Shown: positions 59,591 through 63,175 of the stretch, piece after piece
How positions within the stretch are numbered: position 1 is the first letter of the stretch
Layout of the letters: each line of letters opens with the position of its first letter
NCBI GenBank assembly: GCA_903877125.1
Contig: CAIRCM010000211.1
Coordinates: 1 to 64,000, forward strand
From: an uncultured Acetobacteraceae bacterium
GTDB lineage: Bacteria; Pseudomonadota; Alphaproteobacteria; Acetobacterales; Acetobacteraceae
Direction of reading: 5' to 3'
DNA length: 64,000 bases
Position numbers and translations under genes: made by a program
The notes under the pieces: model-generated
Database searches by the model: none
Seen by the model: the letters and a program-made list of their open reading frames with translations, nothing else
Told to the model about the DNA's origin: nothing

Positions 59591-60559
59591 TTAGTGGATG
59601 ATGATTTCCACGCGGCGGTTCTGCGGTTCCCGCACGTTCGGGCCGGTCGGCACGAGCAGGTGGGTTTCGCCGAACGCGCTGATCGCGATGGCGGTCTTGG
59701 GAACGCCGTCCTTGACGAGTTCGGCGGCGACCGTTTGCGCACGGCGCATCGACAGGCCCTGGTTGTAACGCGGCGAGCCCGAGGTGTCGGTGTAACCGTT
59801 CACGTCGATCTTCGTGTAGGCCACCTTGGCGGAGCTCGCGGCGGCGTCGGCGATGATGCCGCGCGCACGGGCCGTCAGGTTCGACTTATCCCAATCGAAG
59901 AACACGAGGTAGGAACGGCTCGGAGCGGCGACCGGCGGCGGGGTCACGACCGGCGCGGGGGCGGCGGCGACGAAGGCGTAACGCACGCCGAGCAGCAGGC
60001 TGTGGTTGTAGTTGTTGGTCGAGGACACACCGTTGTAGTTGCGGTTGCCGGCCAGACCCATGAAGCGGTACTCGGCGGTGACGGCCAGGTTGGCGTCGAC
60101 CGGGATCGCAGCGCCCAGGATGCCCTGATACGCTAAGGAACCCTTCGTGGTGCTAACCATGGAGAGGCGTTCGGCTTCGTAACCGACACCGGCGCCGACA
60201 TACGGCACGAACGCGGGGCTCAGGCCGTTGAAGTCATACAGCGCGTTGACCATGGCGCCGTATTTCTGCTCGTTGCCGCTGTTGCTGCCGGCGGTCGACG
60301 GCAGGCTGTTGTAACGGTAGTTGCCTTCGATTTCAGCACGGAAGCCATTGCCGAAGCCATAACCGATGCTGGCCAAGCCGACGAAGCCAACCTTCGGGCT
60401 GATCGACGTGCCGGTACTGCCGGTCACGGTGAAGGACTCGCTCTGCATCAGGTTCGCACCGACGCCAGCGCCGATGTACAGGCCGTCGATCGGCTGCGCG
60501 TTTGCAGCGAGGGGAAGCGCCACCAGTGTGGCGGCGAATACTGCGCTCCGTAGCGTCAT
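59591..60559 (-). CDS. OmpA-like outer membrane protein (tandem paralogue)
   Basis: A 322-residue outer membrane protein, paralogous to its downstream neighbour. A signal peptide ends A-N-A near residue 21. The N-terminal beta-barrel carries Y-I-G-A-G-V-G-A-N and V-P-Y-V-G-A-G-V-G-Y. A Val/Pro-rich linker with A-P-A-P-V-V-T-P-P-P leads to the OmpA C-terminal domain with F-F-D-W-D-K-S-N-L and G-Y-T-D-T-S-G-S. CAGGAGACAGCAC precedes the ATG at 60559. A strong terminator follows. It probably links the outer membrane to peptidoglycan. Confidence 0.88.
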   Translation of the reverse strand: MTLRSAVFAATLVALPLAANAQPIDGLYIGAGVGANLMQSESFTVTGSTGTSISPKVGFVGLASIGYGFGNGFRAEIEGNYRYNSLPSTAGSNSGNEQKYGAMVNALYDFNGLSPAFVPYVGAGVGYEAERLSMVSTTKGSLAYQGILGAAIPVDANLAVTAEYRFMGLAGNRNYNGVSSTNNYNHSLLLGVRYAFVAAAPAPVVTPPPVAAPSRSYLVFFDWDKSNLTARARGIIADAAASSAKVAYTKIDVNGYTDTSGSPRYNQGLSMRRAQTVAAELVKDGVPKTAIAISAFGETHLLVPTGPNVREPQNRRVEIIIH

Positions 60560-60747
60560 GTGCTGTCTCCTGTTTGAATGTCGTGCGCGGGCGAACTTTC
60601 CGGCGACACGTGCCGAACCCGCTCAACCACGCGGTGACTACACTATTAGGGCTGCCCGTTGGGCTTGGCGAGAGGCTGGCAGCAGCTTTCGACCGATGTG
60701 TTGCCCAAACGCCACACAGCTCGGCGCCACTGCAACAGGCCTTGGTC

Positions 60748-60843
60748 TGGCGGAAGAGAGCAGGAGTCGAACCTACCCAGGACCGCTTTGCCGCCCCAAC
60801 CGGGTTTGAAGTCCGGCCGGCCCACCGGGGCCGCTTCTCTTCC
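60748..60843 (-). tRNA. selC: tRNA-Sec (anticodon UCA, CCA encoded)
   Basis: Read on the minus strand, this 96-base gene has an eight-base acceptor stem GGAAGAGA/TCTCTTCC, G73 and encoded CCA (60750-60748). The six-base D stem CGGCCC/GGGCCG, the long variable arm and the TTCGACTCC T-loop are those of bacterial tRNA-Sec. The anticodon TCA is at 60809-60807 inside the loop CTTCAAA. It matches the Escherichia coli gene closely in order and in the G-A-C-T-T-C-A-A-A segment. selA lies 18 bases upstream of it. Confidence 0.97.
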
Positions 60844-60861
60844 GTCGCCACTATGGACGTT

Positions 60862-62214
60862 TTAAGACGCCGCGTGAAGTTGCGCGGCGAAATCGGCCTC
60901 TTCCCTCGGTTCCAGGCAACGGCAATCCAGCCAGATCCGGTCTCGCGCAATCCGGCCGACAACCGGACGGGGCATGGATCGCAGTGTCGCGGCCAATGAT
61001 TCGAGCGCCCCACCCCCAAGCGTCACCGCCGCGGAGGGCAGCAGATCCACCGGCAACGCGCCGGAGCCGATCTGGCTGCGGCATGGCTCCACCGCGACGG
61101 GCCGGTCCGGAAAGGCGCGTTGCAACAACGCAGCCATGCGTTGAGCGGTCGCCTCGATATCCGCCGCTGGGCGGGTTAGCAGCCGTAGGGCGGGCAAGGT
61201 CGCGGCCAACCGGTCGGGGTCCAAATAGAGCCGCAGCACGACTTCCAGCGCGGCGATCCGGCCCTTGTCCAGGCGCAATGCCCGCTTCAACGGATTGGCG
61301 TTGATGCGGGCGATCACGGTTTTGTTACCGACGATCAACCCGGCCTGCGGGCCGCCGAGCAGCTTGTCGCCGGAGAAGGTGACGACGTCGGCACCGGCGG
61401 CGAGGGCTTCGGATGGGGTCGGTTCATGCGGCAGATCCCAGCGCGCGAGGTCCACCAGGCTGCCGCTGCCCAGATCCTCGATCAACGGCAGACCGGCGTC
61501 ATGGGCGATCCGGGCGAGCGCATCGGTCGGTACGGACGCGGTGAACCCTTCGATCGCGTAGTTTGCCTGATGCACGCGCATCAGCGCCGCCGTGTCCGGA
61601 CCGATTGCCTGGACATAATCCCGGGGATGCGTGCGGTTGGTCGTGCCGACCTCATGTAGAATGGCCCCGGCGCGACTCATTATATCCGGCACGCGGAAGG
61701 CGCCGCCGATTTCGATCAGTTCGCCGCGCGAGACCGGCACTTTTTTGCCGAGTGCCAGCGTGTTCAGCACCAGCATGACCGCGGCGGCGTTGTTGTTGAC
61801 GACCGTCGCGGCTTCCGCCCCCGTCAGGCGGCAGATGAGTGGCGCGATATGATCGTCCCGCTCGCCGCGCCGGCCGGTGCGCAGGTCGAATTCCAGATTG
61901 GTCGGGGATCGCATCGCCTCCGCCGCGGCTTCCGCTGCCTCGGGCGGCATGGGCGATCGGCCGAGGTTCGTGTGAAGCACCGTGCCGGTGAGGTTGAAGA
62001 CCGGCTTCTGCGACCGACCGAACGAGGCGGCAAGGACGTCTGCCGCTTCGTCCAGGATGTCTTCGGCCGGTGCGTTGAAGCGCCGCGCCTCCCGCCGGTC
62101 GGCCAGGATGCCGCGCAACGCCGCGATCGTCGCCGTGCGGCCAAAGCGTGCCAGGAGCACCGCGGCGGTTGGGGTGCGCAGGAGGAAGTCGAGGGACGGA
62201 AGGGGGCTGGTCAT
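60862..62214 (-). CDS. selA: L-seryl-tRNA(Sec) selenium transferase
   Basis: A 450-residue PLP enzyme that converts seryl-tRNA(Sec) to selenocysteinyl-tRNA(Sec) with selenophosphate. The PLP lysine is Lys284 in [13 protein letters not shown]. The N-terminal tRNA-binding helices (1-70) and [13 protein letters not shown] at 74-86 are typical. The ATG at 62214 was chosen as it gives the usual length and N-terminus; ribosome binding is weak. The gene is directly followed by the tRNA-Sec gene on the same strand, so both parts of the selenocysteine pathway are linked. selB and selD are not in the window. Confidence 0.95.
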
Positions 62215-62296
62215 GTGGGCGCATCCTAGGGCCGCTGGTTTGGCCGGCAAGCTGTGCCCGATTGCGCCGCGATCCCGCCCATGCTCACACTGGCTC

Positions 62297-63175
62297 ATGC
62301 CAAACATTGCTATCATTGGGCCAGGAGCCATCGGCGGGATCGTCGCGGCTTGGCTTGCGCAATCGACCGCCAACGCGGTGTCACTGTGTGCGCGCGCGCC
62401 TTTGTCCGGTTTGCGGATCGACACGCCGCGCGGACCGATCGCGGCATCGCCAACGATTTGGCTGGCGGCGGATCAGGCCACGCCGGTCGACTGGGTGATG
62501 ATCGCCACCAAGGCGTACGATGTCGCGGGTGCGGCGGCATGGCTGCCGGGGCTGATCGGTGCGGGAACCCGTATCGCGATCCTGCAGAACGGGGTGGAGC
62601 ATATCGAACGCTTCTCACCCTACGCCGATCCCGCGATCCTGCTTCCCGTCGTGGTCGATATCCCAGCCGAACGCTCAGGGCCTGGCCAGGTGCGGCAACG
62701 GCGGGAAGGCACGCTGGTCGTCGCGGACACGCCGAGCGGCCGGGATTTCGTCGCGCTTTTCGACGGTGCGGGCATCGATGTCTCCACCGACCCCGATCTG
62801 AAGTCCAGGGTCTGGCGCAAACTCGCCATCAACTGCGCCGGTGCGGTGTCGGCTATGACGCTCCAACCCGCTTGGGTGTCCCATCGGTCGGATATCGCCG
62901 AGATCATGCGGGAGATGGTGCGCGAATGCCTTGCGGTCGCTCGGGCCGAGGGTGCGACGCTGCCGGACAGTTTGCCCGACGAAGTTGTTGCCGGATACCA
63001 GCAGAGCCCGCCGGACTCGGTCAATTCCCTGCATGCGGACCGTGCCGCGGGGCGGGCGATGGAGGTCGATGCACGCAACGGCGTCATCGTCCGGATCGGC
63101 GCCAGACATGGCATCGCGGCGCCGGTGAACAAGATGATTGTCGCTTTGCTGAACGCCGCGGCCGGGGTTACCTGA
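62297..63175 (+). CDS. 2-dehydropantoate 2-reductase family protein
   Basis: A 292-residue Rossmann-fold oxidoreductase of the PanE/ApbA family, which reduces ketopantoate to pantoate with NADPH in CoA synthesis. The N-terminal G-P-G-A-I-G-G (residues 8-14) binds the cofactor. The K in T-K-A-Y-D near 75, Q-N-G-V-E near 101-105 and the C-terminal [10 protein letters not shown] near 258-267 belong to the ketopantoate reductase pattern. The product is a PanE homologue; other substrates are known within the family. The ATG at 62297 lies in the 82-base gap from selA, which it diverges from. Confidence 0.85.

Follow-up and report, generated by a model that had tools for sequence, protein, structure and literature searches.

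Two divergent SelB factors, a single tRNA-Sec with its selA and differing predicted SECIS hairpins in an uncultured genus of the Acetobacteraceae

The genome of an uncultured bacterium of the Acetobacteraceae encodes two divergent SelB factors alongside one tRNA-Sec and one selA, and contains three genes of the UGSC family in which a single in-frame TGA is followed directly by a predicted hairpin. On balance we favor an arrangement of parallel SelB-SECIS channels, in which the two SelBs would read different hairpins and share one tRNA-Sec and one SelA. To our knowledge, Sec insertion in bacteria is usually described as relying on one SelB that reads all the SECIS elements of a cell, and a search of the open-access literature in PMC turned up no account of divergent SelBs that coexist and have separate SECIS types.

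The selA and tRNA-Sec genes lie in tandem near the end of the window, by which we mean the whole stretch of 64,000 nucleotides that was analyzed:

59591..60559, minus strand: OmpA-type outer membrane protein gene (OmpA-family matches), downstream; context only, outside the Sec system
60748..60843, minus strand: tRNA-Sec (selC), anticodon TCA/UCA, GCCA end encoded (ARAGORN and Rfam RF01852)
60844..60861, minus strand: 18-nt spacer from the selA stop to tRNA-Sec
60862..62214, minus strand: selA, L-seryl-tRNA(Sec) selenium transferase, 450 aa, ATG at 62214 (TIGR00474)

Rfam model RF01852 covers the tRNA-Sec at model positions 1-91 of 91 with 72.6 bits (gathering score 47) and the selA reading frame reaches 551.8 bits against TIGR00474 (cut-off 267.9), scores that rule out chance; of the bacterial Sec decoding trait, both the tRNA-Sec with a UCA anticodon and selA are present. 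The first-pass annotation of this DNA had described a tRNA-Sec adjoining selA at a distance of 18 bases on one strand, OmpA genes on the downstream side and a window devoid of selB and selD. All of this was borne out: 18 nt separate the end of a full-length selA from the tRNA-Sec that follows it, and the genome's selB and selD matches over the cut-offs are all on other contigs. The reading frame beyond the OmpA-type gene has C-terminal residues nearly identical to those of that gene. Neither a sigma-70-type promoter nor a minus-strand terminator pattern was seen within 60400-62500. At E <= 1e-60 the focal genome holds this selA match only. It also yields ten matches to RF01852, eight of which, leaving out the two weakest, were submitted to ARAGORN; the one in the window was called tRNA-Sec, and the other seven, read as tRNA-Ser (four), tRNA-Gly, tRNA-Tyr and tRNA-Cys, were discarded as candidates for a second tRNA-Sec. 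The first-pass annotation had also recommended a look at any in-frame TGA in nearby genes. When the window and six fetched stretches were scanned for codon bias, one candidate came up in the window (position 2706), unconvincing by eye, and one each in L029, L030 and L032; by eye, these four looked like gene ends or shadow frames and were set aside. An all-against-all scan of the fetched loci for conserved TGA codons was swamped by shadow frames.

The pairing of selA with tRNA-Sec is ordinary in the genus. selA was found in 27 of 33 genomes, and because tRNA-Sec occurs on the same strand at 24 of the 27 selA loci, we regard selA-selC as a conserved unit and not a remnant. The gap between the two genes is 0-19 nt in 22 of the 24 tRNA-bearing loci and 262 nt in G032, with a 49-nt overlap in G015. 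The three selA loci devoid of tRNA-Sec are those of G016, where a contig end cuts it, and of G018 and G030, in which selA is divergent. In these last two species selA and selB form a very divergent pair (L061, L062, L141, L156). At the G015 locus (L147; G015:C461) it is the selA reading frame that extends 49 nt into the tRNA-Sec, an arrangement reminiscent of the selB-selC nesting described in PMC8124441.

The other genes of the pathway are found elsewhere in the focal genome (5.15 Mb in 231 contigs, 97.9% complete, 2.85% estimated contamination). Two full-length selB genes map to contigs C96 (SelB1) and C115 (SelB2); their products share 42% identity and match the selB equivalog model TIGR00475 over nearly its full length with 382.9 and 371.6 bits, respectively (cut-off 242.25). 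A single selD-like gene, with a fused N-terminal oxidoreductase, exceeds the selD cut-off of the Sec trait (TIGR00476, 288 bits, cut-off 125); the best NCBIfam model of its product is TIGR04369, 'fusion_not_SelD', at 484 bits, below that model's own cut-off of 700. A search of the genome for selB and selD had been proposed, the absence of both being taken to imply a decaying pathway. Both were found, although the first-pass annotation had not foreseen that there would be two SelBs. With two selB genes, the selD-like gene and three TGA-bearing UGSC genes, a decaying pathway is rejected; the pathway looks live, and the organism very probably makes selenoproteins, as had been surmised from the window. 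TGA-bearing genes with a predicted SECIS-like hairpin, of the kind expected, turned up in the UGSC genes; the Sec formate dehydrogenase (FDH) put forward as an example was not found. Eight partial matches to TIGR01553 in the focal genome were all below the cut-off and free of internal stops, an FDH search of the same genome at E <= 1e-60 returned none, and FDH was rejected as its selenoprotein. Some sister species do have a Sec-FDH (eight TGA-bearing genes in seven genomes). Among the genus genomes, G002 (80% complete) has two TGA-bearing FDH genes yet no SelB was found in it, and G024 has an FDH gene devoid of TGA, with neither selA nor selB found.

Matches to the UGSC family model NF041046, which appears in a table of PMC13188914, were found in 25 of the 33 genus genomes (over the model's cut-off in 13 of 33). 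Forty-two of the 43 matches contain exactly one TGA; the TGA-less fragment G004:C230 (45.5 bits) was dropped. A tree of the 42 genes resolves four groups, A to D, and the focal genes fall in B, C and D. The focal copies and their neighbors are as follows:

Contig C176: UGSC-B, 173 aa, Sec at 94, one in-frame TGA
Contig C153: UGSC-C, 173 aa, Sec at 93, one in-frame TGA
Contig C44: UGSC-D, 172 aa, Sec at 94, one in-frame TGA
L113:6318-7370, L114:7713-8906, L115:8551-9591 and L115:9588-10550: four copies of a family of ~350-aa proteins
L115:7213-7992: thioredoxin reductase (TrxR)-like gene beside UGSC-D; also in L068, L122, L125, L070 and L121

In each focal UGSC gene the TGA falls in the conserved UGSC motif, at the conserved Sec/Cys position, and a purine-rich stretch precedes the start codon, the start codons being those we chose. 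With U read as C, the three proteins score 162, 157.5 and 111.8 bits against Pfam PF24696, all passing its gathering cut-off of 25, and 120.1, 120.1 and 105.1 bits against NF041046, below its curated cut-off of 125. No solved structure was matched significantly by a UGSC profile (best E 0.7). In alignment A2, the fourth row begins at an estimated coordinate and not at a start codon. A member of the ~350-aa family adjoins 39 of the 42 UGSC genes (E <= 1e-40, fetched stretches), the exceptions being G016:C212, G032:C435 and G009:C222; it lies upstream in groups A to C and, in the focal genome, downstream and doubled in D. The four focal copies have no Pfam or NCBIfam match at the thresholds used. 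In six of the seven genomes with UGSC-D, the gene directly upstream encodes a thioredoxin-reductase-like flavoprotein; judging by these gene associations, the UGSC protein may be a redox enzyme that works together with a flavoprotein. In the focal genome UGSC-B also adjoins a gene for a 675-aa Hint-domain protein (L113:8054-10081).

A SelB was found in 25 of the 33 genus genomes, and eight of them (G000, G004, G007, G009, G011, G021, G026 and G032) have two. Elsewhere the arrangement was not met: SelB (E <= 1e-60) was present in 66 of 387 genomes of an even sample of the class and in 62 of 397 genomes of a phylum sample, two SelBs occurring only in G000 and in none of the 65 and 61 others, respectively (three best candidates per genome scored; the samples partly overlap). 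A SelB tree of 38 rows, from which one fragment of the initial 39 (G034) was dropped, places the genus sequences in three clades, B1 (6 rows, 100/100), B2 (13 rows, 100/100) and B3 (11 rows, 94/82), with G004.C23, G018 and G030 as outliers; in this tree B1 contains sequences from the genus only. Mean identity between the clades is 49-53% over the first 350 residues and 38-44% over the last 146, with domain borders that are our own cuts. The C-terminal recognition helix differs accordingly in its motif, GRQ in B1, GRN in B2 and GRK in B3. A search of contigs with SelB1 returned at least 593 relatives, 80 loci of which were kept as named SelBs; GRK was the commonest motif in the 33 of these 80 in which it was read (19 of 33), by a crude pattern that misread some of them. 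Beyond the genus, GRN was read in G071, G052 and one named locus (L194). The selB2 gene (L029:3736-5847 and relatives) shares 4 nt with an overlapping acetate-CoA-ligase-like gene; copies of the latter, 86-91% identical and partial ones included, are found in the selB2 loci of eight other genomes.

Directly after the UGA, the UGSC genes have in common a potential hairpin, predicted at the same place in all four groups; by our reading, 41 of the 42 genes (all but that of G029) form its apical stem in their lowest-energy fold. The hairpin keeps its pairing through base changes. In 18 hand-picked representatives of the 42 UGSC SECIS sequences, 93.7% of cells pair and sliding the partner abolishes most of the pairing; in five of the sequences the pair 21-27 is G-C instead of C-G. 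Three of five covariation measures exceed all 500 shuffles, and two, the number of covarying pairs (137/500) and of further pair types (430/500), do not stand above them. Folded singly against shuffles, the focal UGSC-B hairpin stands out (z -3.99), that of C weakly (-1.87) and that of D does not (-0.49). All three share the loop AGTTT and differ in their stems.

Across the genus the loop varies with the SelB present. In UGSC-B and -C it is AGTTT (AGUUU) in all nine genes from genomes that carry SelB2 but lack SelB3, and AGTCT (AGUCU) in all eleven from genomes in which SelB3 is the sole SelB; G016, in which no SelB was found, also has AGTTT. The change between the two replaces Leu codon TTG, which makes up 15% of Leu codons in the organism's own genes, with CTG and leaves the protein unaltered; it corresponds to about two independent events, one in UGSC-B and one in UGSC-C. 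The UGSC-A loop is TGTAC in 14 of 14 genes, and UGSC-D reads ATCGTGG-AGTTT-CCACGAC in 6 of 6 SelB1 genomes. In G010, whose only SelB is SelB3, UGSC-D retains the AGTTT loop and two silent changes bring its outer stem to that of UGSC-B; since the loop bases also encode Ser-Phe, protein constraint could fix the loop of this group. FDH genes have AGTCT in seven of eight cases and AGTTT in G018, a genome with yet another, divergent SelB.

The SelB clades also co-occur with particular UGSC groups. Fifteen Fisher tests were run over the 33 genomes, with p values uncorrected for multiplicity or relatedness, and the following pairs emerged:

B1 and UGSC-D: both 6, B1 alone 0, UGSC-D alone 1 (G010), neither 26; p 6.3e-6
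B2 and UGSC-A: both 12, B2 alone 1, UGSC-A alone 2, neither 18; p 3e-6
B3 and UGSC-B: both 10, B3 alone 1, UGSC-B alone 5, neither 17; p 4.5e-4
B2 and UGSC-D: both 6, B2 alone 7, UGSC-D alone 1, neither 19; p 0.008

The last association arises because all six SelB1 genomes also carry SelB2; UGSC-D is absent from all seven genomes that carry SelB2 but lack SelB1. Across the SelA tree (27 genomes), five of five independent pairs show B1 and UGSC-D changing together (sign test p 0.0625, the lowest value attainable with five pairs), and B1 has no positive link with UGSC-A or -C, nor with UGSC-B, where about two of five pairs run in the opposite direction. The other two associations rest on few events: for B2 and A one of three pairs goes the same way and two show no difference, and for B3 and B two of three go the same way. 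The focal genome itself has SelB2 and no UGSC-A. Physical linkage points the same way, selB1 standing in one row with a TrxR-like gene and UGSC-D in G009, selB2 adjoining UGSC-A in G027 and G004, and selB3 lying 2.5-3.1 kb from a Sec-FDH gene in G021 and G015.

In the model of parallel channels, the window would hold the shared supply end of a working Sec pathway, SelA and tRNA-Sec, with the remaining genes scattered over the genome. The SelD-like protein would make selenophosphate, and SelA, with the tRNA from the window, would supply a single Sec-tRNA pool; on this pool SelB1 (C96) would draw to read the hairpin of UGSC-D (C44), and SelB2 (C115) to read those of UGSC-B (C176) and UGSC-C (C153). 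From the sequences we infer that Sec is built into the UGSC proteins and that the two SelBs differ in the hairpin they prefer. G010 fits the model poorly: either UGSC-D does not strictly depend on SelB1, or its decoding in G010 is poor. Whether the genus as a whole evolved mutually distinct SelB-SECIS pairs within one cell, each with its own hairpin dialect and selenoprotein set, the SECIS loops being silently rewritten as SelB clades were swapped, is to our mind an even question.

An alternative we think unlikely, while giving it some weight, is that the SelBs are redundant, either of them reading every hairpin, and that SelB1 and UGSC-D move together as one gained gene module. In G009, selB1, the TrxR-like gene and UGSC-D do lie in a row on one strand, as they would in a mobile module, G010 retains UGSC-D with no SelB1, and the difference between the focal hairpins, with their common AGTTT loop, is confined to the stem. 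Yet linkage of selB1 with UGSC-D is seen in only two of the six SelB1 genomes (G009, and G011 at about 8 kb) and both genes are kept in all six; the recognition helix differs between the SelB clades, and the loops of UGSC-B and of UGSC-C switch with the SelB clade, all of which argues against redundancy.

The second SelB could conceivably be an artifact of mixed or contaminated draft assemblies. The fragmentation and estimated contamination of the focal assembly leave some room for this, as does the finding of the two selB genes on different contigs in all eight two-SelB genomes, one of which, G009, has 8% estimated contamination. We nevertheless consider a mixed assembly very unlikely because none of these genomes has a second selA (six have one and in two none was found); moreover, the doubling recurs in eight genomes of the genus, one of the eight is 99% complete with 1% contamination and has its selB genes on contigs of 101 and 369 kb (G021), and the SelB1 clade is restricted to this genus in our tree. 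That SelB1 is no longer a Sec factor and has acquired another role or another tRNA appears highly improbable as well. It does carry GRQ where other SelBs most often carry GRK, but its score on the selB equivalog model is above the cut-off over nearly the full length, it co-occurs with a TGA-bearing UGSC gene, and no second tRNA-Sec was found among the eight RF01852 matches checked. With two SelB clades per cell, the genus makes SelB-SECIS specificity testable with natural pairs and offers biotechnology candidate channels for inserting Sec independently of one another; it is also an instance in which the recoding signal may have been altered under an unchanged protein sequence.

The E. coli-type selABCD/SECIS machinery is the canonical bacterial Sec system. 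The focal genome resembles it in its tRNA-Sec, SelA, SelD-like protein and SelB, and in a predicted hairpin immediately after the UGA; it departs from it in having two divergent SelBs for one tRNA-Sec and one SelA, other sel genes scattered apart from selA-selC, and UGSC proteins with no Sec formate dehydrogenase found. The three focal proteins share with the UGSC family (PF24696; NF041046) the motif, the in-frame TGA and a score over the Pfam cut-off, whereas they score under the cut-off of the NF041046 equivalog; further differences are the four paralogous groups in the genus, three of them in the focal genome, and a B/C loop that varies with the SelB clade. The canonical selABCD/SECIS system is among the subjects reviewed in PMC13188914. 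In Alphaproteobacteria, selC has been described as nested in selB (PMC8124441); selC is here likewise closely coupled to another sel gene, but it follows selA, with the 49-nt overlap of G015. Photobacterium profundum 3TCK, according to PMC5330540, has two complete sel operons, the tRNA-Sec being duplicated with the operon. The genome studied here is like that of P. profundum 3TCK in having more than one set of Sec decoding genes and unlike it in that one tRNA-Sec and one selA accompany its two SelBs.
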